From contig SLGR01000201.1 of the NCBI GenBank assembly GCA_007136585.1, positions 1 through 14,187 of the forward strand: a stretch of DNA of 14,187 nt. Reading direction: 5' to 3'. The position numbers and the translations under genes were made by a program. Shown here one piece after another: positions 236-14,135 of the stretch. The notes under the pieces were generated by a model. That model made no database searches and was not told where the DNA came from. It saw only the letters and a program-made list of their open reading frames with translations. The stretch's first letter is position 1. The number at the start of each line of letters is the position of its first letter. The stretch comes from Candidatus Sumerlaeota bacterium (GTDB taxonomy: Bacteria; CG03; SLGR01).

Positions 236-1930
236 TTATATACTGATTTTTTCCTCAATACCTTCAGGTGACAGATACTCTTTTTTCCCGCTTCTCCTGC
301 AGACAACCTCAAGTTTTCCGTCCTTCATGTAACTTTTGCCTACAATGATCTGCACCGGAAGCCCCAGAAGCTGCGCATCCTTGAACTTCACCCCCGGAGA
401 CTCATCCCGGTCATCCCAGAGCACCTCGTATTTTTCGGAAAGTTTTTCGTAGAGACTGCGGCATATATCCTCCGTATCACCGGAGAGCTGGATAAGGGAT
501 ATCTCAAAAGGCGCGATGGCAGCCGGCCATATTATCCCGTCAGAATCGTGGTTCTGCTCTATGGTCGCCGCAGCCACCCGGGTAACACCTATCCCGTAAC
601 ACCCCATTATCATATCTTTCTCCCGGCCGTCTTTATCCACGAACCTGGCCCCCATAGCTGAAGAATACTTCGTTCCAAGGAGAAACGTATGCCCAACCTC
701 TATCCCCCTCATAATCTTGAGCTCCCCGCCGCATTTCAGGCAGAGGTCGCCCTGCTGCAGCTTCCTAAGCCTTCCTTTCCAGGAGACAGTATAATCCCGG
801 GGAAAGTTTATATTGATAAGATGATAATCTTTCTTTCCGGCTCCGCTTACGGCATTCTGAACCGCTAGAACCTCCTCGTCGGCAAAAACCGGAATCTTCG
901 CCCCGCAGGGTCCGGAAAACCCCGGAGGGCCTCCTGTAACGGCTTTTACCGTTTCGGGCTCCGCAAGGTTGAGCCACTTAGCCCCGCTGGCGGAAAGAAG
1001 CTTATCCTGGCAGAGTTCATGGTCCCCCCTTACCAGGGCCGCCACCGGGCCCTTATCAGAGTCAAATATGAGTGTTTTTATGAATTTCCGGGGTTTCTCC
1101 GAGAGAAACCCGCTTACTTCCTGCACCGTGGTTACCCCGGGCGTATGAACCTCTTGAAGCGGTTTCTCCTCCTCTTCAGGAAACCCGGGTTCACCTTCAG
1201 GGCCTTTAAAACCGGCCATTGAGGATGAGGCCCCGTACCCGCAGGAGCAGACGGCCACTTCCTCCTCGCCCGTTGAGGCAAGAACCATAAACTCGTGTGA
1301 AAACTCTCCGCCTATATTCCCGGTATCGGCTTCTACTACAGCAAACTCCAGCCCGCACCGTTCAAAAATCCTCTTATAGGCCTTAAAATGAAGATCATAT
1401 GAGCTCCGGCATCCTTCCAGGTCGGCGTCAAAACTGTAGGAGTCCTTCATATAGAACTCACGGGCCCTCATAACTCCGAACCTGGGGCGTATCTCGTCGC
1501 GGAACTTCATCTGAAACTGGTATAAGGTTACAGGAAGCTGCTTGTAGGACCTTACGTTCTCGGAAACGATCTTCGTAACTACCTCCTCGTGTGTAGGGCC
1601 CAGGCAGAACTCCCTTCCGCCCCGGTCCTTGAGACGCATAAGCTCCGGACCGTAGAGATCCCACCTTCCGCTCTCCTCCCAGAGACTCCTGGGCTGCATG
1701 GCGCTCATTACGATCTCCTGGGCCCCCGCCGCGTCAAGCTCTTCTCTAATTATCTCTTCTATTTTTCTTACGGTACGCCACCCCAGCGGGAGAAACTCGT
1801 ATACACCTGAGGCGAGTTTCCTTATCATCCCGGAGCGTATCATCAGCTTATGGGAAGGGATCTCGGCCTCCCGCGGATCCTCCTTGAGCGTAGGCAGAAA
1901 ATACTCTGACATTTTCTTTGAATATTTCAT
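236..1930 (-). CDS. proS: Prolyl-tRNA synthetase, bacterial type with editing insertion
   Basis: The 564-residue product charges tRNA-Pro with proline in the cytoplasm. It has the bacterial ProRS layout: class II motif 1 around residues 26-50, the TxE-type loop GPTHEEVVT at 111-119, motif 2 with FRDEIRPRFGVMRAREFYMKD at 143-163, and motif 3 GCYGIGVTR at 443-451. An editing (INS/YbaK-like) insertion lies between motifs 2 and 3, roughly residues 225-385. It has a lysine in KTLIF (about K285) and a GFSGPCG loop. Cysteine pairs at 228/230 and 397/400 flank the insertion, as in other bacterial ProRS. The anticodon-binding domain follows (WDDRDESPGVKFKDA at 505-519). Length is normal for the family (about 570). 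The gene begins 4 bases after the ispG stop, so it is probably translated by coupling. Identity is secure. Confidence 0.97.
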   Translation of the reverse strand: MKYSKKMSEYFLPTLKEDPREAEIPSHKLMIRSGMIRKLASGVYEFLPLGWRTVRKIEEIIREELDAAGAQEIVMSAMQPRSLWEESGRWDLYGPELMRLKDRGGREFCLGPTHEEVVTKIVSENVRSYKQLPVTLYQFQMKFRDEIRPRFGVMRAREFYMKDSYSFDADLEGCRSSYDLHFKAYKRIFERCGLEFAVVEADTGNIGGEFSHEFMVLASTGEEEVAVCSCGYGASSSMAGFKGPEGEPGFPEEEEKPLQEVHTPGVTTVQEVSGFLSEKPRKFIKTLIFDSDKGPVAALVRGDHELCQDKLLSASGAKWLNLAEPETVKAVTGGPPGFSGPCGAKIPVFADEEVLAVQNAVSGAGKKDYHLININFPRDYTVSWKGRLRKLQQGDLCLKCGGELKIMRGIEVGHTFLLGTKYSSAMGARFVDKDGREKDMIMGCYGIGVTRVAAATIEQNHDSDGIIWPAAIAPFEISLIQLSGDTEDICRSLYEKLSEKYEVLWDDRDESPGVKFKDAQLLGLPVQIIVGKSYMKDGKLEVVCRRSGKKEYLSPEGIEEKISI

Positions 1931-1934
1931 AACT

Positions 1935-2957
1935 TCACAACTTTCTGAACTCCCGGATAAGCATCCGGATCATCTCTTTCTCCCCTGATTCCGCGGTTTT
2001 AAGGGCTTTTCCCTTCCTGATAATAAGCGCCCCGTTCCTTGTCCCGCATATACCTATATCGCAGTGAGAAGCCTCACCGGGCCCGTTTACCTCGCAGCCC
2101 ATCACCGCTATACTAAGAGGCTTTTCCCTGTCCTCCGGGGCAAGTTCCGATATCAGGGTATCCAGCCAGGAGGAGACGTCTATCCTGCTCCTTGAACACC
2201 CGGGGCAGGAAATTACCTCCAGCGCATCGCCGTACCCGAAAACCGCGTTCCTTAAAATAACAGCAGTTCTCACCTCTTCCACGGATTCATCCGTAAGCGA
2301 GACCCTTATGGTATCGCCTACCCCGTCTACCAGAAGCGCGCCCAGGGCGGCCGATGTCTTTATGATTCCCTCCCGGGGCGGCCCCGTTGCCGTCACTCCT
2401 ATGTGAAGGGGGGTATCGGAACGCATTGAAAAAAACCTGTTTGCATCCACTGTGGCTGTTACCGACGGGGATTTCATTGAGACAAGAAAATTCTCAAACC
2501 CTCTTTTCCTGAGTTTATCATCCCACTCAAGAGCAAGTGAGGCAAGCTCTTCGGAACCGTGAGCCCCGCAGGAACCGCTGTTAAACCCCAGCCGGAGCGC
2601 CGCTGAGCGGCGGGCTGCCGCTTCCGCTGTCTCAAGAACCCCTTTCTCGGGGGTATTTCCGGGGTTTACCCTTACCTTGTCAAACCCCGCCTTCAGGGCC
2701 GAGGCCGCTATCCCGGGGCTGAAATGACAATCCGCCACAAGCGGGACCCCCAGTTCACTGAGCGCTCCGTATACCGCGGCTGAATCCTCGCCGGGAACAG
2801 CCGCCCTTATTATCTCCGCCCCGGCCTCCACCAGCCTGCGCCCTTCTTCAAGTATCTTCTCAGGTTCGTCAAGAGGGGATTTAAGCATACCCTGTATTCT
2901 AAGCGGGCTACCTTCCCCTACAGGGAGTCCGCCTATCATTACCTGACGGCTCCTCAC
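1935..2957 (-). CDS. ispG: 4-hydroxy-3-methylbut-2-enyl diphosphate synthase (IspG/GcpE)
   Basis: IspG makes HMBPP from MEcPP in the penultimate step of the MEP isoprenoid pathway, using a [4Fe-4S] cluster. The 340-residue product has a TIM-barrel half with VRVNPGNTPEKG (95-106) and VGDTIRVSLT (213-222). The cluster half has cysteines C251 and C254 (SCPGCS) and C288 in VMGCEVNGPGEA, with the cluster-ligand glutamate at 295. This is the short bacterial form. The GTG start at 2957 overlaps the rseP stop (GTGA), and a GAGG lies 8 bases upstream. This start keeps the usual R-x-R-x-V beginning; an ATG six codons later would trim it. Two conserved spots differ from the usual sequence: QSMT reads QGML (22-25) and GVTEAG reads GVTATG (187-192). 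Dxr, two genes upstream, supplies the same pathway. Confidence 0.95.
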   Translation of the reverse strand: MRSRQVMIGGLPVGEGSPLRIQGMLKSPLDEPEKILEEGRRLVEAGAEIIRAAVPGEDSAAVYGALSELGVPLVADCHFSPGIAASALKAGFDKVRVNPGNTPEKGVLETAEAAARRSAALRLGFNSGSCGAHGSEELASLALEWDDKLRKRGFENFLVSMKSPSVTATVDANRFFSMRSDTPLHIGVTATGPPREGIIKTSAALGALLVDGVGDTIRVSLTDESVEEVRTAVILRNAVFGYGDALEVISCPGCSRSRIDVSSWLDTLISELAPEDREKPLSIAVMGCEVNGPGEASHCDIGICGTRNGALIIRKGKALKTAESGEKEMIRMLIREFRKL

Positions 2958-3985
2958 TGAAACACCCTCAGTATATCCTGCCAGGTGGCAAAAAGTATAA
3001 GCGCTATAAGAAGGGAGACTCCTATCATATTCGCCACCGCGATTTTCTTCGGGTCAAGGGCCGAACCCTTGACTTTTTCCGCGAAAGCCAGAACTATATG
3101 CCCCCCGTCAAGGATGGGTACGGGAAGGAGATTTATCAGCCCCAGCTGGACGCTTATGAGCGCTATGAGCTGAAAAAGAGAGATTAACCCGTGCCTGGCA
3201 GCATCCGAAACGGCGTGGGCTATTCCGATGGGTCCGGAGACATCGGCCTCCATCCGCCCGGTTATCATAAGCCACAGAAACTCAAGCAGGGTAAGGCTTA
3301 TAAAAAAAACGTATCTTATGCTCTCTACTATGGATTCAAAGAAACCAAGCTTCACCTCTTCAACCGGAGCGGTTATTCCCAGAAACCCCCGGCCGCTCGC
3401 CTCTTCATACTCAGGAGCGGCCTCTATATTAATCACCTCTCCTTCCCTATCCACTTTAAAGTTTATAACCTCTCCCCCCCGCTCGGAGACCATACTCACA
3501 AGCTCCTGCCAGGTTGAAACTCCGGCACCGTCCACGGTCAGAATTCTATCACCCTCCTCAAACCCCGCCTCAACCGCAGGGTACCCTTCAACCAGACCCC
3601 CTATGACCGGCTCATCTACAACCTGTGTCATACCGGCAAGGTAGATTATAAGGAAAAGGATGAGAGCGCCGGTGATGTAATTCATCGCGGCCCCGGAGAT
3701 AAGGACCGGGATCCTCCTTAAGGGGTCAAGACTCAGAAAGGAGCCCGGCTCCCCCGCGGACTCGTCCTCCATTGTATCGCCTTTCATTCTGACATACCCC
3801 CCGAGCGGGACCGCGGAGATGCGGTACCGGACCCCTTTTCTTGTAAACCCGAAAATCTCCCTGCCAAACCCCAGGGAGAAGACCTCCACGTCTACCCCGC
3901 TCTTTAAGGCCACTATAAAATGACCCAGCTCGTGAACAAATATCACAACCGAAAAAGTAAATATTATCGCAATTAAAGATATCAT
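2954..3985 (-). CDS. rseP: Site-2 zinc metalloprotease RseP, single-PDZ form
   Basis: This is an intramembrane protease that cleaves membrane-bound regulators and remnant signal peptides. The first transmembrane helix carries the zinc-binding HELGH (residues 18-22), and the second motif NLLPVPILDGGH (285-296) supplies the aspartate ligand D293. YRISAVPLGGYVRMKGD is the typical loop after the first helix. One PDZ domain occupies about residues 126-195 (GYPAVEAGFEEGDRILTVDG). Further hydrophobic segments lie near 100-118, 224-243 and 318-336. At 343 residues it matches the short, one-PDZ bacterial form rather than the roughly 450-residue two-PDZ E. coli enzyme. The ATG overlaps the dxr stop (ATGA) and follows a GGAGGG Shine-Dalgarno located in the end of dxr. 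Position between dxr and ispG is a common bacterial arrangement. The substrate cannot be told from the window. Confidence 0.96.
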   Translation of the reverse strand: MISLIAIIFTFSVVIFVHELGHFIVALKSGVDVEVFSLGFGREIFGFTRKGVRYRISAVPLGGYVRMKGDTMEDESAGEPGSFLSLDPLRRIPVLISGAAMNYITGALILFLIIYLAGMTQVVDEPVIGGLVEGYPAVEAGFEEGDRILTVDGAGVSTWQELVSMVSERGGEVINFKVDREGEVINIEAAPEYEEASGRGFLGITAPVEEVKLGFFESIVESIRYVFFISLTLLEFLWLMITGRMEADVSGPIGIAHAVSDAARHGLISLFQLIALISVQLGLINLLPVPILDGGHIVLAFAEKVKGSALDPKKIAVANMIGVSLLIALILFATWQDILRVFQ

Positions 3986-5133: not shown

Positions 5134-5948
5134 CTTAGTACCCACAGGGCGTAATGGTACATAAAAGGAAGGGTGAAGAGAAGACTGTCCGTCCGGTCAA
5201 GAAACCCCCCGTGACCCGGAAGAAAAACCCCTGAATCCTTCCTGCTCAAACCTCTTTTTATCATTGATTCGGCAAGATCTCCCGCTACGGCAAGGATCCC
5301 TAAAAAGGCCCCCGCGCCGAGAGCGGAGCGCGCCGATATGAAATAAAGACCCAGAGCGCGGGAGAGAAGAAACATCGCTGCGGAGGCAAAAATAACGGCC
5401 CCCGCCGCTCCCGCCCTCGTTTTTCCGGGGCTTGCGGAATGAAGCCGGGCCCTGCCGAACTTAAGTCCGGTAAAATACGCCCCGGTATCAGCAGCCCAGG
5501 TAGCAAGCACCCCGGCGAGCATAAGCTCCCTTCCGAAAGGCCTTATCCCCCTGAGTAGAACTCCGTAACTCATAAGCCATCCTATGTAAAGAACTCCCGT
5601 AAGGGTAGCGGTATACCCCGGGAAAAAACCTTCAATGTTCTTTCTGAAAATATAAATTATGAAAGTTGATGATACAGCAAAAAAAAGAAGGAACCTGAAG
5701 GTATCCGCAGTCTCCCTGTACATACGCGGCGAAACTGCCGTGAAAGCTCCAAGGAGGAAGAGAACTGATAATATAATCCCCCACTTTCTAAGCACAGGAA
5801 CTCCGTTGTCGATACACATAGCGAAATACTCAAGGAGGCATCCTGCGGTTATAAGAAGGACCAGTATAAAAAATGGAACTCCGCCCCAGTATATGAGAGA
5901 ATAGGCTATAAGTACGCCGGCAACTCCGGAAAGAACCCTGTTCCTCAT
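5130..5948 (-). CDS. cdsA: Phosphatidate cytidylyltransferase (CDP-diglyceride synthase)
   Basis: CdsA makes CDP-diacylglycerol from phosphatidate and CTP at the inner membrane, the precursor of bacterial phospholipids. The 272-residue product is strongly hydrophobic throughout, with several membrane helices. The C-terminal family signature is complete: S228-x-I-K-R, then KDSG, then [13 protein letters not shown] (about 228-255). [17 protein letters not shown] (149-165) and SPGKTRAG (173-180) match the metal/CTP-binding segments of the family. The start ATG at 5948 has a GGGGAG Shine-Dalgarno about nine bases upstream. It is separated from uppS by 109 bases, the largest gap between neighbours inside the operon, and overlaps dxr by 4 bases. 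Confidence 0.96.
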
Positions 5949-5989
5949 CTCAAAAAACTCCCCTTGTCCTTACAGGGCGCGGCGGGCCG

Positions 5990-6033
5990 GGGCTCCTCCC
6001 TCCGAAGGACGCCTCCCCCGGAGCCCTTTTTTT
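5990..6033 (+). terminator. Terminator-shaped hairpin facing against the operon
   Basis: On the plus strand GGGCTCC (5990-5996) pairs with GGAGCCC (6020-6026), and seven Ts follow directly (6027-6033). The 23-base loop holds a second small hairpin, TCC-GAA-GGA (6001-6009). This is a textbook intrinsic terminator, but it would act on plus-strand transcripts, whereas uppS and cdsA on either side are on the minus strand. Read on the minus strand the same element is a GC-rich hairpin preceded by seven As and followed by no T-tract, so it should not stop operon transcription. An alternative stem pairs CCGGGG (5987-5992) with CCCCGG (6016-6021), mutually exclusive with the first. Confidence 0.6.
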
Positions 6034-6057
6034 GTGAGTTTGAAACCATAACGCGCT

Positions 6058-6735
6058 TCATCTCCTGGCGCCGAACCTTCTGTTACGGCGGTGAAAAGAC
6101 TTAACCGCCTTTTCAAGCTCTGTCTCATCAAAATCGGGCCATAGCGTATCCGTAAAATAAAGCTCCGCGTAGGAGATCTGCCAAAGCATAAAATTTGAAA
6201 TACGCATCTCCCCGCTGGTTCTTATAAGGAGATCCACATCCGGAGCTTCGGGAACATTGAGGTTCCGGCTGAACGCCTCCAGGTCTCCTCCGTCGTAGGA
6301 AGCGGCGGCATCCAGTATTTCCCGTCGCCCGCTGTAATCAAGACAGAGGATAGCGCTCAGAGAGTCTCCGGAAGAGGTCTCCCGGATACTCTTGTCAAGC
6401 AGGGAGTTTATCCTATCCCTGAACCTGTCTCTTCTTCCGGAAACAAGAAGCCTAACCCCGTTCTCCTTCATTTCCAGAACCTTCTTCTGCAGAAAATCAG
6501 CCAGAATTTCCATCAGAGCATTGACCTCGCTCTCAGGTCTTTTCCAGTTCTCGGATGAGAACGCGTATAGGGAAAGGTACTTTGCCCCGCCGCGGGCGCA
6601 GGTCTTTGTTATCTCACTTACACGTTCGGCCCCGGCGCGGTGCCCCCAGACCGTATCCATTCCCCGGACCCTGGCCCAGCGGCTGTTTCCGTCCATAATT
6701 ATAGCGATGTGGTCAGGGAACCGGTCGGATATCAT
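6058..6735 (-). CDS. uppS: Isoprenyl transferase, undecaprenyl diphosphate synthase type
   Basis: This cis-prenyltransferase condenses IPP onto farnesyl diphosphate to make the undecaprenyl carrier used for peptidoglycan and other envelope polymers. The 225-residue product has the family's five regions. They include HIAIIMDGNSRWA (residues 9-21, catalytic D15), GHRAGAERV, YAFSSENWKRP (57-67), the tyrosine-glycine region CLDYSGRREI (131-140), and LLIRTSGEMRISNFMLWQ (169-186) with YAELYF. The commonly seen DGNGRWA reads DGNSRWA; other members also vary at that position. The ATG at 6735 follows the frr stop by 10 bases. There is no strong Shine-Dalgarno, so translation probably relies on coupling to frr. 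It would consume the isoprenoid units made through Dxr and IspG. Confidence 0.96.
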   Translation of the reverse strand: MISDRFPDHIAIIMDGNSRWARVRGMDTVWGHRAGAERVSEITKTCARGGAKYLSLYAFSSENWKRPESEVNALMEILADFLQKKVLEMKENGVRLLVSGRRDRFRDRINSLLDKSIRETSSGDSLSAILCLDYSGRREILDAAASYDGGDLEAFSRNLNVPEAPDVDLLIRTSGEMRISNFMLWQISYAELYFTDTLWPDFDETELEKAVKSFHRRNRRFGARR

Positions 6736-9751: not shown

Positions 9752-10525
9752 TCAGTAGGATTCAAGCAGGGTTTCGGCATCCCGGCCGTAATCGGTCAGG
9801 GAAGCGGTAAAGACTTCCTTCTCCGGTGAGGTGTACCTGTACCTGATCACTCCCCCTGGGACTGTCTCGCTCAGCCAGAGCTCGATCTCTCCCCTTTCGG
9901 GTATCCCGTACCTTATGTGCCTGGCGGTAAAACTGCCGGCGGGCACGTTTATATCAACCTCACCCACAGAAGCGGCCTCCAGGGATTCCGGCGTTATCCG
10001 GAGAGGCGCCGCATAACCGTAAGTACCTTCAGTAACCGGAACCTCAAAAGGCTCTTCGGGACCCATTTTGGCCCGGAGACGCCTTACTGAAAAATCAGGC
10101 TCGGCTATAAGGGCCTCATAAATAATCGCATCATCATCCGGCGGGTCCAGGGAGAGACGCCACCAGGAGATCTCCTCCTCCGCCTCTTTGAGAAACGCCA
10201 GTTCCGTCTCTAGATCAGGTATCTCGGAGGCATCGCAAAACTCCCATTTTGTCCACTGGCCGGGTTCAAACTCCCGCTGCCAGGGCCATACCCCACCCAC
10301 CGAGAATTTATAACTGAACAGAGCCTGCGACATCTGAAGAGCCACGCTCCGCCGGGCCCTATCTGCATGAGAGAGGTCCTCCCTCTCAGGCTCTTCCGCA
10401 TCCCGGGGTTCTTCCATAAAAGAGGCAATATCAATATCACCTAAACCTGGTGACGGAATACGGGTCCCGCATCCGGAAACAAGCATTACTGAGACAATCA
10501 ATATTGACGGTAAAAAATTTCTCAT
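9752..10525 (-). CDS. Putative lipoprotein of unknown function
   Basis: The 257-residue product starts with a short basic N-terminus, a hydrophobic stretch and a lipobox LVSGC, with the lipidated cysteine at residue 19. It is therefore probably anchored in a membrane by signal peptidase II processing. The mature protein is acidic near its start (EEPRDAEEPEREDL). Its C-terminal half reads VPAGSFTARHIRY (roughly 196-208), then IELWLSETVPGGVIRYRY and TASLTDYG. That VPAG-F-(A/K)-x-(R/K) ... W-x-S-x-x-VPGG ... L-x-x-YG pattern recurs in uncharacterised exported beta-rich bacterial proteins; I cannot name a function. The ATG has an AAGGAG six bases upstream. It begins 65 bases after the upstream exported-protein gene and is probably cotranscribed with it. 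Confidence 0.85.
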   Translation of the reverse strand: MRNFLPSILIVSVMLVSGCGTRIPSPGLGDIDIASFMEEPRDAEEPEREDLSHADRARRSVALQMSQALFSYKFSVGGVWPWQREFEPGQWTKWEFCDASEIPDLETELAFLKEAEEEISWWRLSLDPPDDDAIIYEALIAEPDFSVRRLRAKMGPEEPFEVPVTEGTYGYAAPLRITPESLEAASVGEVDINVPAGSFTARHIRYGIPERGEIELWLSETVPGGVIRYRYTSPEKEVFTASLTDYGRDAETLLESY

Positions 10526-10590: not shown

Positions 10591-11544
10591 TTATTTTACA
10601 GTTTGAACCGGAAATACAGCCGAAATTCTTATGCTCTCAGGGCCGGGTACTATTTTAATCCCTGAGAGTATTTTGTCAAACTCTTCGTTCCCCTCAGCGG
10701 ATATCATAAAAAAAGCCTTCAGACCGTTTAGCAGGGAACCCAGTTCCCTGTTTGCCTTCTCATCCGGACGGTACCCTGTAAGAATAACCCTGATATCTTC
10801 ATCCTCATAATATTCCGCGAAAACGCTGATAAGTTCAATACCTTCCACTCCTTTAAGTACGGGATGACCCCTGAAAAGCCCTTCTGCGCCGAACTTCTCC
10901 GATAGGACAGCCCCCCGGAGAAACATATTCTCGCCTGGAGTATCAATTATTTTAATTATCCGGCTATCCGGACTCAAAGGTTCCGCGATTTTCTTTGAAA
11001 CCCTTAGAACGGACTCAACTCCGTTTCTGTTTCCTATAACAACATTATTTTTATCGGGAAAAGAAACCCAGACAGGCTCGTCACCTTCTCTGGGTATTAT
11101 CCTGTAAGCGGGGGTCCCTTCAATTTCTTCAGGAAAAACCTCCGCTCCTTCGCCCGACGCGGCCTCTTCAAGGAAACCGGAGAACTTCTCCCTTGTATAT
11201 TTAAGGTTTACAACCGCACCGCCCATACCCTCTTCATCTTCGGGTACACCTCCAAAAAAAACAGCGTAGTTTACCCCCCCGGGGATATTCAGGCCGACTT
11301 TTTCAGCATATTCATAAAACCTGCTGAAATCAGTCTCTTCTCCGGGGAAGAGATCTGTTTCAGGAAAGGCGGGGCCGGGGACCCTGTTTTCCAGAAGAAA
11401 TACCGCTGCGGCTTCCCGGGGAATGAACCTGAACATCCCCTTGCCGGATAAACGGGTCCCCTCATCCGGACTGGAAAAAATTTCTCCGGGGAACATCATC
11501 AGGAAAAGCGTGAAAATGATAAGTTTTCTTTTTCTCATGTTCAT
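10591..11544 (-). CDS. Exported protein of unknown function
   Basis: The 317-residue product has a Sec-type signal: MNMRKRK, a hydrophobic core IIFTLFLMMF, and likely cleavage near residues 23-26 (EIFSS). The mature part has the run IPREAAAVFLLENR, FYEYAEKVGLNI, YAVFFGGVP, then YTREKFSGFLEE, GTPAYRI, VSFPDKNNVVIGNRNGVESVL and a later VRVIL-like beta segment (DIRVILTGYRPDEKANRELG). This order (a self-describing beta strand, a helix, a tyrosine-rich YRI segment, then 'd-x-x-x-v-x-G-x-x-x-x-v-x-x-v-L') is reminiscent of secreted hypothetical proteins of Acidobacteria and Planctomycetes. I know no function for them. There are no cysteines after the signal. A near-consensus promoter lies only about 11 bases before the ATG. 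Confidence 0.85.
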   Translation of the reverse strand: MNMRKRKLIIFTLFLMMFPGEIFSSPDEGTRLSGKGMFRFIPREAAAVFLLENRVPGPAFPETDLFPGEETDFSRFYEYAEKVGLNIPGGVNYAVFFGGVPEDEEGMGGAVVNLKYTREKFSGFLEEAASGEGAEVFPEEIEGTPAYRIIPREGDEPVWVSFPDKNNVVIGNRNGVESVLRVSKKIAEPLSPDSRIIKIIDTPGENMFLRGAVLSEKFGAEGLFRGHPVLKGVEGIELISVFAEYYEDEDIRVILTGYRPDEKANRELGSLLNGLKAFFMISAEGNEEFDKILSGIKIVPGPESIRISAVFPVQTVK

Positions 11545-11631: not shown

Positions 11632-11659
11632 TTGACAGTTTATTTAAGATATTTAGAAT
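11632..11659 (+). promoter_or_regulatory. Promoter for the SPS-PfkB fusion gene
   Basis: A perfect -35 TTGACA (11632-11637) is followed after 16 bases by TAGAAT (11654-11659). Transcription should start near 11666, giving a leader of about 37 bases that contains AGGAG (11688-11692), 10 bases before the ATG at 11703. Confidence 0.7.
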
Positions 11660-11702
11660 TGAGCATAAATTTATCTGTTTGGTAATCAGGAGAAATAAAT
11701 AT

Positions 11703-14135
11703 ATGCTTATATCATTTTTAAACCCCCAGGGGAATTTCGACAGGCACGACAGCAGATGGGTGACCCATCCGGATTTCGGAGGACAGCTTGTTTATGTAAA
11801 AGAACTGGCCATAGCCATGGCCCGTATGGGGTACCGCGTGGATATAGTTACCCGGCGTATAAGTGATCCCGAATGGCCGGAGTTCTCCTCAGAGTTCGAT
11901 ACCTACGAAGGCGTGGAGAATATGCGTATAGTCCGACTGGACTTCGGACCCGAAAAGTTCCTTGACAAGGAAGAACTCTGGGCGCACCTTATTCCGGGTT
12001 ACGTAGAGCAACTTATAGAGTTCTACAAGAAGGAAGGACAGATGCCCGATGCTCTCACAGCCCACTATGGAGACGGGGGCCTTGCAGCCGCTTACCTCAA
12101 GGAAAAAACAGGGATCCCCTATACATTTACCGCCCATTCCCTCGGAGCACAGAAAATGGATAAGCTCGGGGTAACCAGCAGTAACGCCTCCCAGCTTGAT
12201 AAGAGATACAACTTCTCCCTTAGGCTTCTTGCCGAAAGGGTCAGCGTAAATAAAGCCGACAGGATCATAACAAGCACCAGGCAGGAGAGGTTCAGCCAGT
12301 ACACGCATACAGCCTACCAGGAAGCTGTTTTCGCGGATAACGACGAAAAATTTTCGGTTATACCTCCGGGCGTATCCTTAAGGGTTTTTGACAAAAACAT
12401 AAAACCGGATCCGGAGCTCGCAAAGGAGTTCAGCAGGCTCCTGAAAAGAGATCTGTCTCCCAACAGGGTTAATCTTCCCTCGGTAATCTCCTCCAGCCGC
12501 CTTGACCCCAAGAAAAACATACAGGGGATAGTAAAGGCGTTCGGGGAGAGTCATACCCTGCAGGATGAGGCCAACCTTGTAATAGTAACCAGAGGGTTTC
12601 AGAACCCCCTTAAACAGCGGAAGAAGTTACCAAAAACCAGGGAAGGGGCTGTCCTCCAGGAACTGATTTCTCTTATTGATACTTACGGTCTCAGGGGCAA
12701 GGTATCCATGATCTCTATAGAAAAACAGGAACGGCTGGCCCAATTTTACCGTTTTCTTTCTGATAAAAGGTCCGTCTTCTGCCTGGCTGCTCTGTACGAG
12801 CCGTTCGGGCTGGCCCCTCTTGAAGCAATGGCCTGCGGGCTTCCTGCGGTGGTAACCAAGTTCGGGGGACCGGCGGAGAGCCTGCGGGAAGGAGACAGGG
12901 AGTTCGGTATCCTGGTAGACCCCAATAACCCCGGCGAGCTGGCGGGGGCCCTTCATTCTCTGGCAAGTTCTCCGAGCACCTGGGAGTCCTACTCCATCAG
13001 GGGGTACCAGAGGGTGCTTGAAAGATTTACCTGGGAAAAAACTGCTCTTTCATATATGAATGTAATAAACGAGATTACCTCCGGGAAAAAAGAAGAGAGT
13101 CTTTTTGATATAAAAATTCATCCTTATTTCCTTGACCCCGAAAAAACCGATCCGCCCGGTCCTGAAGCTCTTAAAGAACTATACCTGCGGCTGAATATAC
13201 TATGCGCCGGGGAAACCGTAATTGACTTCATTTCCAAAAAGAAGACAAACTCCCTTATAGACGCTGAAGACTTCTCCAGGTACCTGGGGGGAAATCCGGC
13301 TAACGTAGCGGTATATGCTTCAAAACTCAGTAAAAAAGTCGCGCTCCTTACAAAACTTGGCAAAGGTCATTTTGCCTCTTTCATTGAGGCAGAGCTCAAT
13401 AAGTACGGGGTAAATACAGAGTATATAAGATACACGGATAAAGATGATACATCCGTGGCTTTCCTATCTCATACTCCTACGGAACCGGATTTTCAGAGTA
13501 TGCACTCCGCCGACAGAAAAATAAGCATAAAGGATGTGACAACTGAGATGGTTGAACGGGCTGATATGGTATATACTTCTCTTTCCTCCCTGGTGGAAGA
13601 ACCGTCCCGGTCCGCGGTAAGAAAAGTGCTGAGAATCGCAAAAAGGACAGGAAAGATAACCGCCCTGGATCCCAACTTCCACCCCAAGATATGGACTGAC
13701 CGCGAGGAGGGCCTGGAAATCCTCGCCCAAATTTGCGACGGTGTAACCATAGTTAACCCCTCTCTCGGAGACGCCCGCCATATCTTTGACTATAATATGC
13801 CGGAAGAGGAACTTACGGAACTCTGCATAAATACTTTCCATAACTGGGGAGCAGGAACCGTTGTTATGACAGCCGGGGGAAGGTATGTTCTTGTCGCCGA
13901 ATACGGAAAGGAGGTCATAAAAGTTGAAGACCTTCCTCCTGTGGATATAGTTGACTCCACCGGAGGTGGGCGGGCCTTTATGTCAGGTTTTCTTGTAGGA
14001 TACCACGACTCCCTCCCCTACAGTAAATGCGTTCTGCTCGGACACCACGTGGCATCCCTGGCGCTTCAGTCTATCGGGCCTTTCCCGAGACATATATCCA
14101 GAAAAGAGATATACGAAAAAATACTTGAAATGTAA
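11703..14135 (+). CDS. sps: Sucrose-phosphate synthase fused to a degenerate PfkB sugar-kinase domain
   Basis: The 810-residue product has two parts. Residues 1-460 are a GT4 glycosyltransferase of the SPS type, which joins UDP-glucose and fructose 6-phosphate into sucrose 6-phosphate. Landmarks are FLNPQGNFD, HPDFGGQLVYVKELA (22-36), TAHYGDGGLA, FTAHSLGAQKM, SSRLDPKKN (R266, K270) and the E-x7-E motif EPFGLAPLE (366-374). The wording resembles, from memory, the Halothermothrix orenii enzyme. After a linker, residues 495-810 form a PfkB domain: CAGETVIDFI, GGNPANVAVYA (529-539), ALDPNFHPKIW. However, the GAGD catalytic motif reads GGGR (DSTGGGRAF, 751-759) and NxxE reads SLGD (687-690), so kinase activity is doubtful. 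The ATG at 11703 has AGGAG upstream; a TTG at 11679 would place that site inside the gene. No phosphatase domain is fused. Confidence 0.9.
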   Translation: MLISFLNPQGNFDRHDSRWVTHPDFGGQLVYVKELAIAMARMGYRVDIVTRRISDPEWPEFSSEFDTYEGVENMRIVRLDFGPEKFLDKEELWAHLIPGYVEQLIEFYKKEGQMPDALTAHYGDGGLAAAYLKEKTGIPYTFTAHSLGAQKMDKLGVTSSNASQLDKRYNFSLRLLAERVSVNKADRIITSTRQERFSQYTHTAYQEAVFADNDEKFSVIPPGVSLRVFDKNIKPDPELAKEFSRLLKRDLSPNRVNLPSVISSSRLDPKKNIQGIVKAFGESHTLQDEANLVIVTRGFQNPLKQRKKLPKTREGAVLQELISLIDTYGLRGKVSMISIEKQERLAQFYRFLSDKRSVFCLAALYEPFGLAPLEAMACGLPAVVTKFGGPAESLREGDREFGILVDPNNPGELAGALHSLASSPSTWESYSIRGYQRVLERFTWEKTALSYMNVINEITSGKKEESLFDIKIHPYFLDPEKTDPPGPEALKELYLRLNILCAGETVIDFISKKKTNSLIDAEDFSRYLGGNPANVAVYASKLSKKVALLTKLGKGHFASFIEAELNKYGVNTEYIRYTDKDDTSVAFLSHTPTEPDFQSMHSADRKISIKDVTTEMVERADMVYTSLSSLVEEPSRSAVRKVLRIAKRTGKITALDPNFHPKIWTDREEGLEILAQICDGVTIVNPSLGDARHIFDYNMPEEELTELCINTFHNWGAGTVVMTAGGRYVLVAEYGKEVIKVEDLPPVDIVDSTGGGRAFMSGFLVGYHDSLPYSKCVLLGHHVASLALQSIGPFPRHISRKEIYEKILEM

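Follow-up and report, generated by a model that had tools for sequence, protein, structure and literature searches.

An H. orenii-type sucrose-phosphate synthase fused to a predicted PfkB pseudokinase in an uncultured bacterial order

Sucrose has been suggested to act as an osmoprotectant in H. orenii (PMC2626281), whose sucrose-phosphate synthase (SPS; 2r60/2r66/2r68) stands alone, without a kinase domain. In plants and cyanobacteria, SPS carries a C-terminal SPP-like (HAD) domain, which is thought to mediate interaction (PMC4493782). Within the PfkB family, the plant FRUCTOKINASE-LIKE proteins FLN1 and FLN2 are pseudokinases that lack fructokinase activity and have a non-catalytic role (PMC5864856, PMC3409070); they are found in the plastid RNA polymerase, are not fused to a glycosyltransferase, and keep the motif Asp (GSGD), with other sugar residues lost. 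A fructose site has been modelled on the H. orenii fructokinase homologue 3hj6 (H. orenii/plant FRK model), and it includes the GGxPAN Asn, the DPNxR Arg and the motif Asp (PMC5864856). A literature search, with most subscription papers outside its scope, found no description of a fusion between SPS and a PfkB or fructokinase domain.

We identified such a fusion as the last gene of the window, the whole 14,187-nucleotide stretch of DNA that was analysed. The gene (11703..14135, + strand) encodes 810 amino acids from an ATG start and is open without a stop. Upstream of it, we read an AGGAG ribosome-binding-like site directly from the sequence (11688..11692, +) and a promoter-like TTGACA-N16-TAGAAT by consensus match only (11632..11659, +). 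The protein consists of a GT4/GT-B SPS domain (residues 1-461; 13085 being the last position of the stretch 11703..13085, +), an SPS C-terminal tail or linker, IHPYFLDP...LKELYLR (residues 462-496; 13086..13190, +), and a PfkB domain of the ribokinase fold (residues 497-810; 13191..14132, +). As in plants and cyanobacteria, SPS is thus followed by a domain that resembles a pathway enzyme, except that their tail is a phosphatase homologue and this one a fructokinase homologue; as in FLN1 and FLN2, a PfkB domain is retained after the loss of kinase function, a loss that is predicted here. On the opposite strand, the interval from rpsB to the fusion gene encodes two proteins whose N-termini resemble secretion signals (window 9752-10525 and 10591-11544, -), neither of which has a Pfam match.

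The one-frame fusion of a sequence-intact SPS with a full PfkB domain, as the first-pass annotation had described it, is borne out by the 810-aa reading frame, by Pfam and by the motifs of 2r60. Pfam placed GT-B sucrose synthase/GT4 domains at residues 8-435 and PfkB (PF00294) at residues 498-792, the latter with 153 bits (1.1e-44) against a gathering score of 25.8. A full-chain AlphaFold2 model, built from 29 window and locus sequences, was confident throughout (mean pLDDT 92.1, pTM 0.86). Residues 1-461 of the model matched 2r60 with a Z value of 45, and the structural check that had been proposed for the second half likewise came out in its favour, with residues ~495-810 matching many sugar kinases and PfkB members (Z 34-40). 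By Pfam score and by the fold of the model, residues 497-810 are a member of the PfkB/ribokinase superfamily.

The SPS half aligned to 2r60 over residues 3-479 (533 bits, ~52% identity), and the two proteins are alike in the whole GT-B fold, in the catalytic motifs and in an IPxYF..P C-terminal tail. The retained motifs include the catalytic His of HSLGAQKM, the donor-site Arg/Lys motif SSRLDPKKN and the E-x7-E motif EPFGLAPLE. On these grounds the SPS half is an H. orenii-type SPS, intact in sequence and predicted to form sucrose-6-phosphate from UDP-glucose and fructose 6-phosphate. It scored 302.8 bits against the NCBIfam model TIGR02472, below the curated cut-off of 576, which may not fit SPS of the H. 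orenii type. The linker of the fusion (IHPYF..P....LKELY) is the same tail that ends the free, second SPS-like proteins of the order, and the kinase starts directly behind it, so the join is one of SPS tail to kinase head. These second, unfused SPS-like genes (~40% identical) occur in every genome of the order that was checked except G005 (L068-L071, L009, L010; G000:C188, L067:3-809). The six copies placed in the tree form a clade of their own (100/99 support), and the genes often lie near topA, dprA and xerC-like genes.

The most conspicuous change in the PfkB half concerns the motif that carries the catalytic Asp. Where D(T/S)TGAGDAF is expected, the window reads DSTGGGRAF (residues 751-759; 13953..13979, +): the codon at 13971-13973 is CGG, encoding Arg757, and the motif, VDSTGGGRAFMSGF, has GGGR in place of GAGD. 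The first-pass annotation had argued that no single sequencing error explains this Asp-to-Arg change, and the other genomes agree, since the Asp is absent from them as well. We found the same domain pair in six genomes of one uncultured order, spanning four families (the window genome and five others), with identities to the window fusion of 70% in G001, 77% in G004 (cut by a contig end), 61% in G003, and 59% in G002 and G005. The contig of G004 ends before the catalytic position, which could therefore be judged in five of the six fused copies. It is R in the window and in G001, A in G003 (DVSGADAAF) and S in both G002 (GYAGANSAF) and G005 (DYSGGGSA), so that none of the five readable copies has Asp. 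Fusion homologues that mostly carry GAGD would, according to the first-pass annotation, have reduced the window gene to one decayed case, and this test did not refute its reading. Standalone fructokinase-type relatives, including 3hj6, keep the Asp in 49 of 49 cases. Chance or an error in a single assembly was rejected as an explanation, given that five other genomes carry the fusion, without the Asp wherever the contig reaches.

The ATP site has changed along with it. The TLGxxG motif of standalone kinases is degenerate in the window (TAGGRYVLV, residues 723-731; 13869..13895, +), where TAGGRY stands in its place, and among the five readable fused copies G725 is kept in two and G728 in none. 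Six ATP-site positions (K685, G725, G728, T753, G756 and D757) are invariant in 34 standalone kinases yet altered in the fused set, and the same is true of D555 and N534. The GKG that had been noted after the first signature is read as such, and this GxD-to-GxG change is fixed in the fused clade and absent from all 34 aligned standalone kinases. Two features of an active fructokinase, the GAGD Asp and a TxGxxG ATP motif, are hence absent from the window domain. With both lost across the clade and the fold still constrained, the PfkB half is very probably a pseudokinase. A further supposed sign of inactivity did not hold up: the SLGD at the NxxE position (13761..13772, +) was read correctly, but it cannot count as a lost catalytic feature. 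S..D is what the subfamily as a whole normally carries; standalone relatives with the catalytic Asp mostly have PSLDD or similar there, 3hj6 (PSLDDARHLF) among them, and we rejected it as a mark of inactivity.

Might the domain still be an enzyme, an unusual kinase or one with another activity that relies on other residues? The intact fold and the existence of a conserved set of new residues would be compatible with this, but the catalytic position is itself not conserved (R/A/S) and the TLGxxG motif is gone, and of all the readings considered here we give this one the least credence.

We next asked how the domain has evolved since. Synonymous sites are saturated (pS ~0.7-0.9), which makes dN/dS unusable as a figure, and we judged constraint instead by regional conservation, by relative identity and by pN, which is 0.10-0.31 in the PfkB half. 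At equal SPS identity (60-65%), identity between fused PfkB halves is 53-61%, against a mean of 49.5% between standalone kinases. Relative to active-type kinases, conservation falls to 0.82 in residues 719-748 and 0.71 in residues 749-762, the stretches of the ATP motif and GAGD, while all other stretches of the fused domain show 1.4-2.1 times the conservation of those kinases; residues 719-762 rank third-lowest of 283 compared windows in the difference between fused and active-type conservation. The fused clade is monophyletic in the trees of both halves (PfkB 100/100, SPS 100/96). Its stem measures 1.5 changes per column in the PfkB half and 0.2 in the SPS half, and the branches that follow are short. 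Such a stem, long only in the PfkB half and leading to short branches, is what one expects when one domain changes function and then comes under new constraint. The drift of the catalytic and ATP positions (R, A, S) and an in-frame stop between the halves in G002 could be taken as signs of a relic in progress, an accidental fusion that decays and is tolerated because SPS still works. We regard this as highly improbable, since purifying selection on the remainder of the domain, in four or more families, is at least as strong as on active-type kinases. Judged by these comparisons, the fused PfkB domain is an old, selected pseudokinase under strong purifying selection outside the ATP/catalytic stretch, and no lone decayed copy.

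The stop in G002 is a single TAA in the linker (L007 junction, FLKPSK*PKISLK), and like the stops of the G005 copy near its contig end it does not affect the motif reading. A nonsense change, readthrough or a fault of assembly might each account for it; right behind it we saw neither a clear start codon nor a ribosome site. With this TAA between the halves, the covalent link may be dispensable in some members.

A separate set of changes affects the sugar side of the domain. The first-pass annotation had held that the sugar-binding signatures remain, and for GExxxDF this stands: its Glu (E504) is kept in five of six fused copies and its Asp (D508) in all six. The GGxPAN signature fared worse. 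In the window, the sugar/hinge motif GGNPANVAVY (residues 529-538; 13287..13316, +) keeps its Asn534, but the other five of the six fused copies have Tyr, and none of the five readable copies keeps the DPNxR Arg (660), which is replaced by His or Gln (His in the window). The sugar site of an active fructokinase, with both the GGxPAN Asn and the DPNxR Arg, is therefore incomplete in the window domain, where Asn534 is present and Arg660 has become His; fructose-site residues were transferred from the published model (PMC5864856) by alignment. N531, Y534, Y538, H601, S628 and H660 show full or near-full conservation in the fused clade and seldom occur in standalone kinases, and residues 531-560, after the GG hinge, form the most conserved stretch of the PfkB domain in the clade.

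These observations bear on the role that had first been proposed, in which the domain binds fructose or fructose 6-phosphate (F6P) and regulates or channels substrate for SPS. The retention of E504 and D508 and the strong conservation of residues 531-560 would agree with it. The change of Asn to Tyr in five of six copies and the loss of the DPNxR Arg in five of five make plain fructose/F6P binding doubtful, however, and with the catalytic Asp the domain has lost another fructose ligand of the H. orenii/plant FRK model (PMC5864856). We thus consider this version unlikely, the sugar-site Asn and Arg being mostly lost, and keep as our foremost hypothesis its broader part, in which the domain has some regulatory or structural role. 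The substitutions are better matched by a sugar-side cleft that has been remodelled and conserved, or by a scaffold or dimer role, than by simple fructose/F6P binding with channelling.

We propose that the non-catalytic PfkB domain, descended from a former pathway partner, has been kept as a scaffold or regulator of an intact SPS, a reading to which we assign a probability of roughly 0.7. An ancestral SPS would have worked with a fructokinase partner, such as is encoded by neighbouring genes in Halanaerobiales-type genomes; the two would have been fused end to start, and the kinase half would have ceased catalysis before the order diversified. The SPS half would be active today and the fused PfkB domain would phosphorylate nothing, being retained since it physically supports or controls SPS, either as a lid-mediated dimer or scaffold module or through allostery, with the remodelled cleft on its sugar side sensing a pathway sugar or sugar phosphate. 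The retained role could also be one of solubility or stability only.

A purely structural form of this proposal, with a lid-type PfkB domain that lets SPS dimerise or stabilises it in brine and binds no ligand, draws on the conservation of the lid strands (506-530, 575-603) and of the linker in the fused clade, on the dimerisation of many PfkB kinases through their lid (PMC5864856), and on the confidence of the full-chain model. A passive scaffold would have no need of the clade-specific conserved changes in the former sugar-cleft motifs (N531, Y534, Y538, S628, H660), and we hold this form to be possible but less than probable. A dedicated allosteric sensor, in which the rebuilt cleft (N531, Y534, Y538, H601, S628, H660) would bind a pathway metabolite and switch SPS, is a somewhat more tentative suggestion still; if true, it would represent a mode of SPS control that we did not find described and that is independent of the plant SPP-like tail. 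If the scaffold or regulator proposal is correct in general, it would provide a second route, independent of the plant and cyanobacterial SPP-like tail, by which SPS has gained a pathway-enzyme homologue at its C terminus, and would be a clear example, in bacteria, of selection preserving a PfkB pseudokinase.

The fusion was found only within the order. Even there, two genomes with completeness of 82% and 66% showed no fusion. Outside the order, none was detected in a sample of 386 genomes from across the domain, in 103 genomes of the Halanaerobiales-type phylum or in 40 of the phylum of G229. What the Halanaerobiales-type genomes do encode, the phylum (that of G338) being so named from gene resemblance to H. 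orenii, is a separate, Asp-bearing pfkB upstream of sps on the same strand. We examined 37 such loci, partly picked by their pfkB match so that the count is not a frequency, and the two genes lie at most 60 nt apart at 31 of them. These pairs occur in many Halanaerobiales-type families, some with a gap of ~0.5-1.1 kb (L122-L152, L168-L173). As in the fusion, the PfkB protein is here a pathway neighbour of SPS, although the gene order, pfkB-sps, is the reverse of that in the fusion. By sequence, 3hj6 is the closest solved PfkB protein to the fused half and shares its S..D variant of NxxE; 3hj6 and the neighbouring pfkB products are separate proteins with GAGD, TLGxxG and the sugar-site Asn and Arg intact, features that the fused domain lacks as a set. 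Since an unfused SPS and an Asp-bearing partner of the fructokinase type are still encoded side by side there, the states before and after fusion are directly comparable, and the comparison bears on whether SPS binds or responds to its kinase neighbour and on whether fusion swapped catalysis for control. The other PfkB genes of the window genome are not of this fructokinase type; one is distant, with GAGD intact, and another resembles what we take to be the RfaE/HldE heptose-kinase type.

The order derives at least in part from soda-lake sediments: two fusion carriers are 'Elusimicrobia' MAGs whose isolate names match such samples, the sampling of which has been described (PMC6146748). By analogy with H. 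orenii, it is plausible that the output of the fusion is sucrose used as an osmoprotectant in saline water or brine, and the system accordingly bears on osmoprotectant synthesis in uncultured soda-lake bacteria. Sucrose-phosphate phosphatase (PF05116) was not found, with only marginal, short matches in G000 and G001, and the one in G000 is a mannosyl-3-phosphoglycerate phosphatase adjoining its synthase. That synthase scored over its curated cut-off and lies beside the MPG-phosphatase-family gene (both within L061:298-2280, G000:C190), and the G000 organism may make mannosylglycerate as an osmolyte too.

The gene tree pairs G002, of the window genome's family, with G005, of another family, and the two share a GH65/beta-PGM neighbourhood, a grouping for which transfer of the locus within the order is a possible explanation. 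In both genomes, a GH65 glycoside phosphorylase-type gene immediately precedes the SPS/pseudokinase genes, and a divergent gene of the beta-phosphoglucomutase family lies beside it (the pair at L063:2755-5439 and 5605-6243; L066:1-444 and 595-3297). The GH65-type protein ends in two CBS domains, and this pairing of GH65 with CBS looks unusual.
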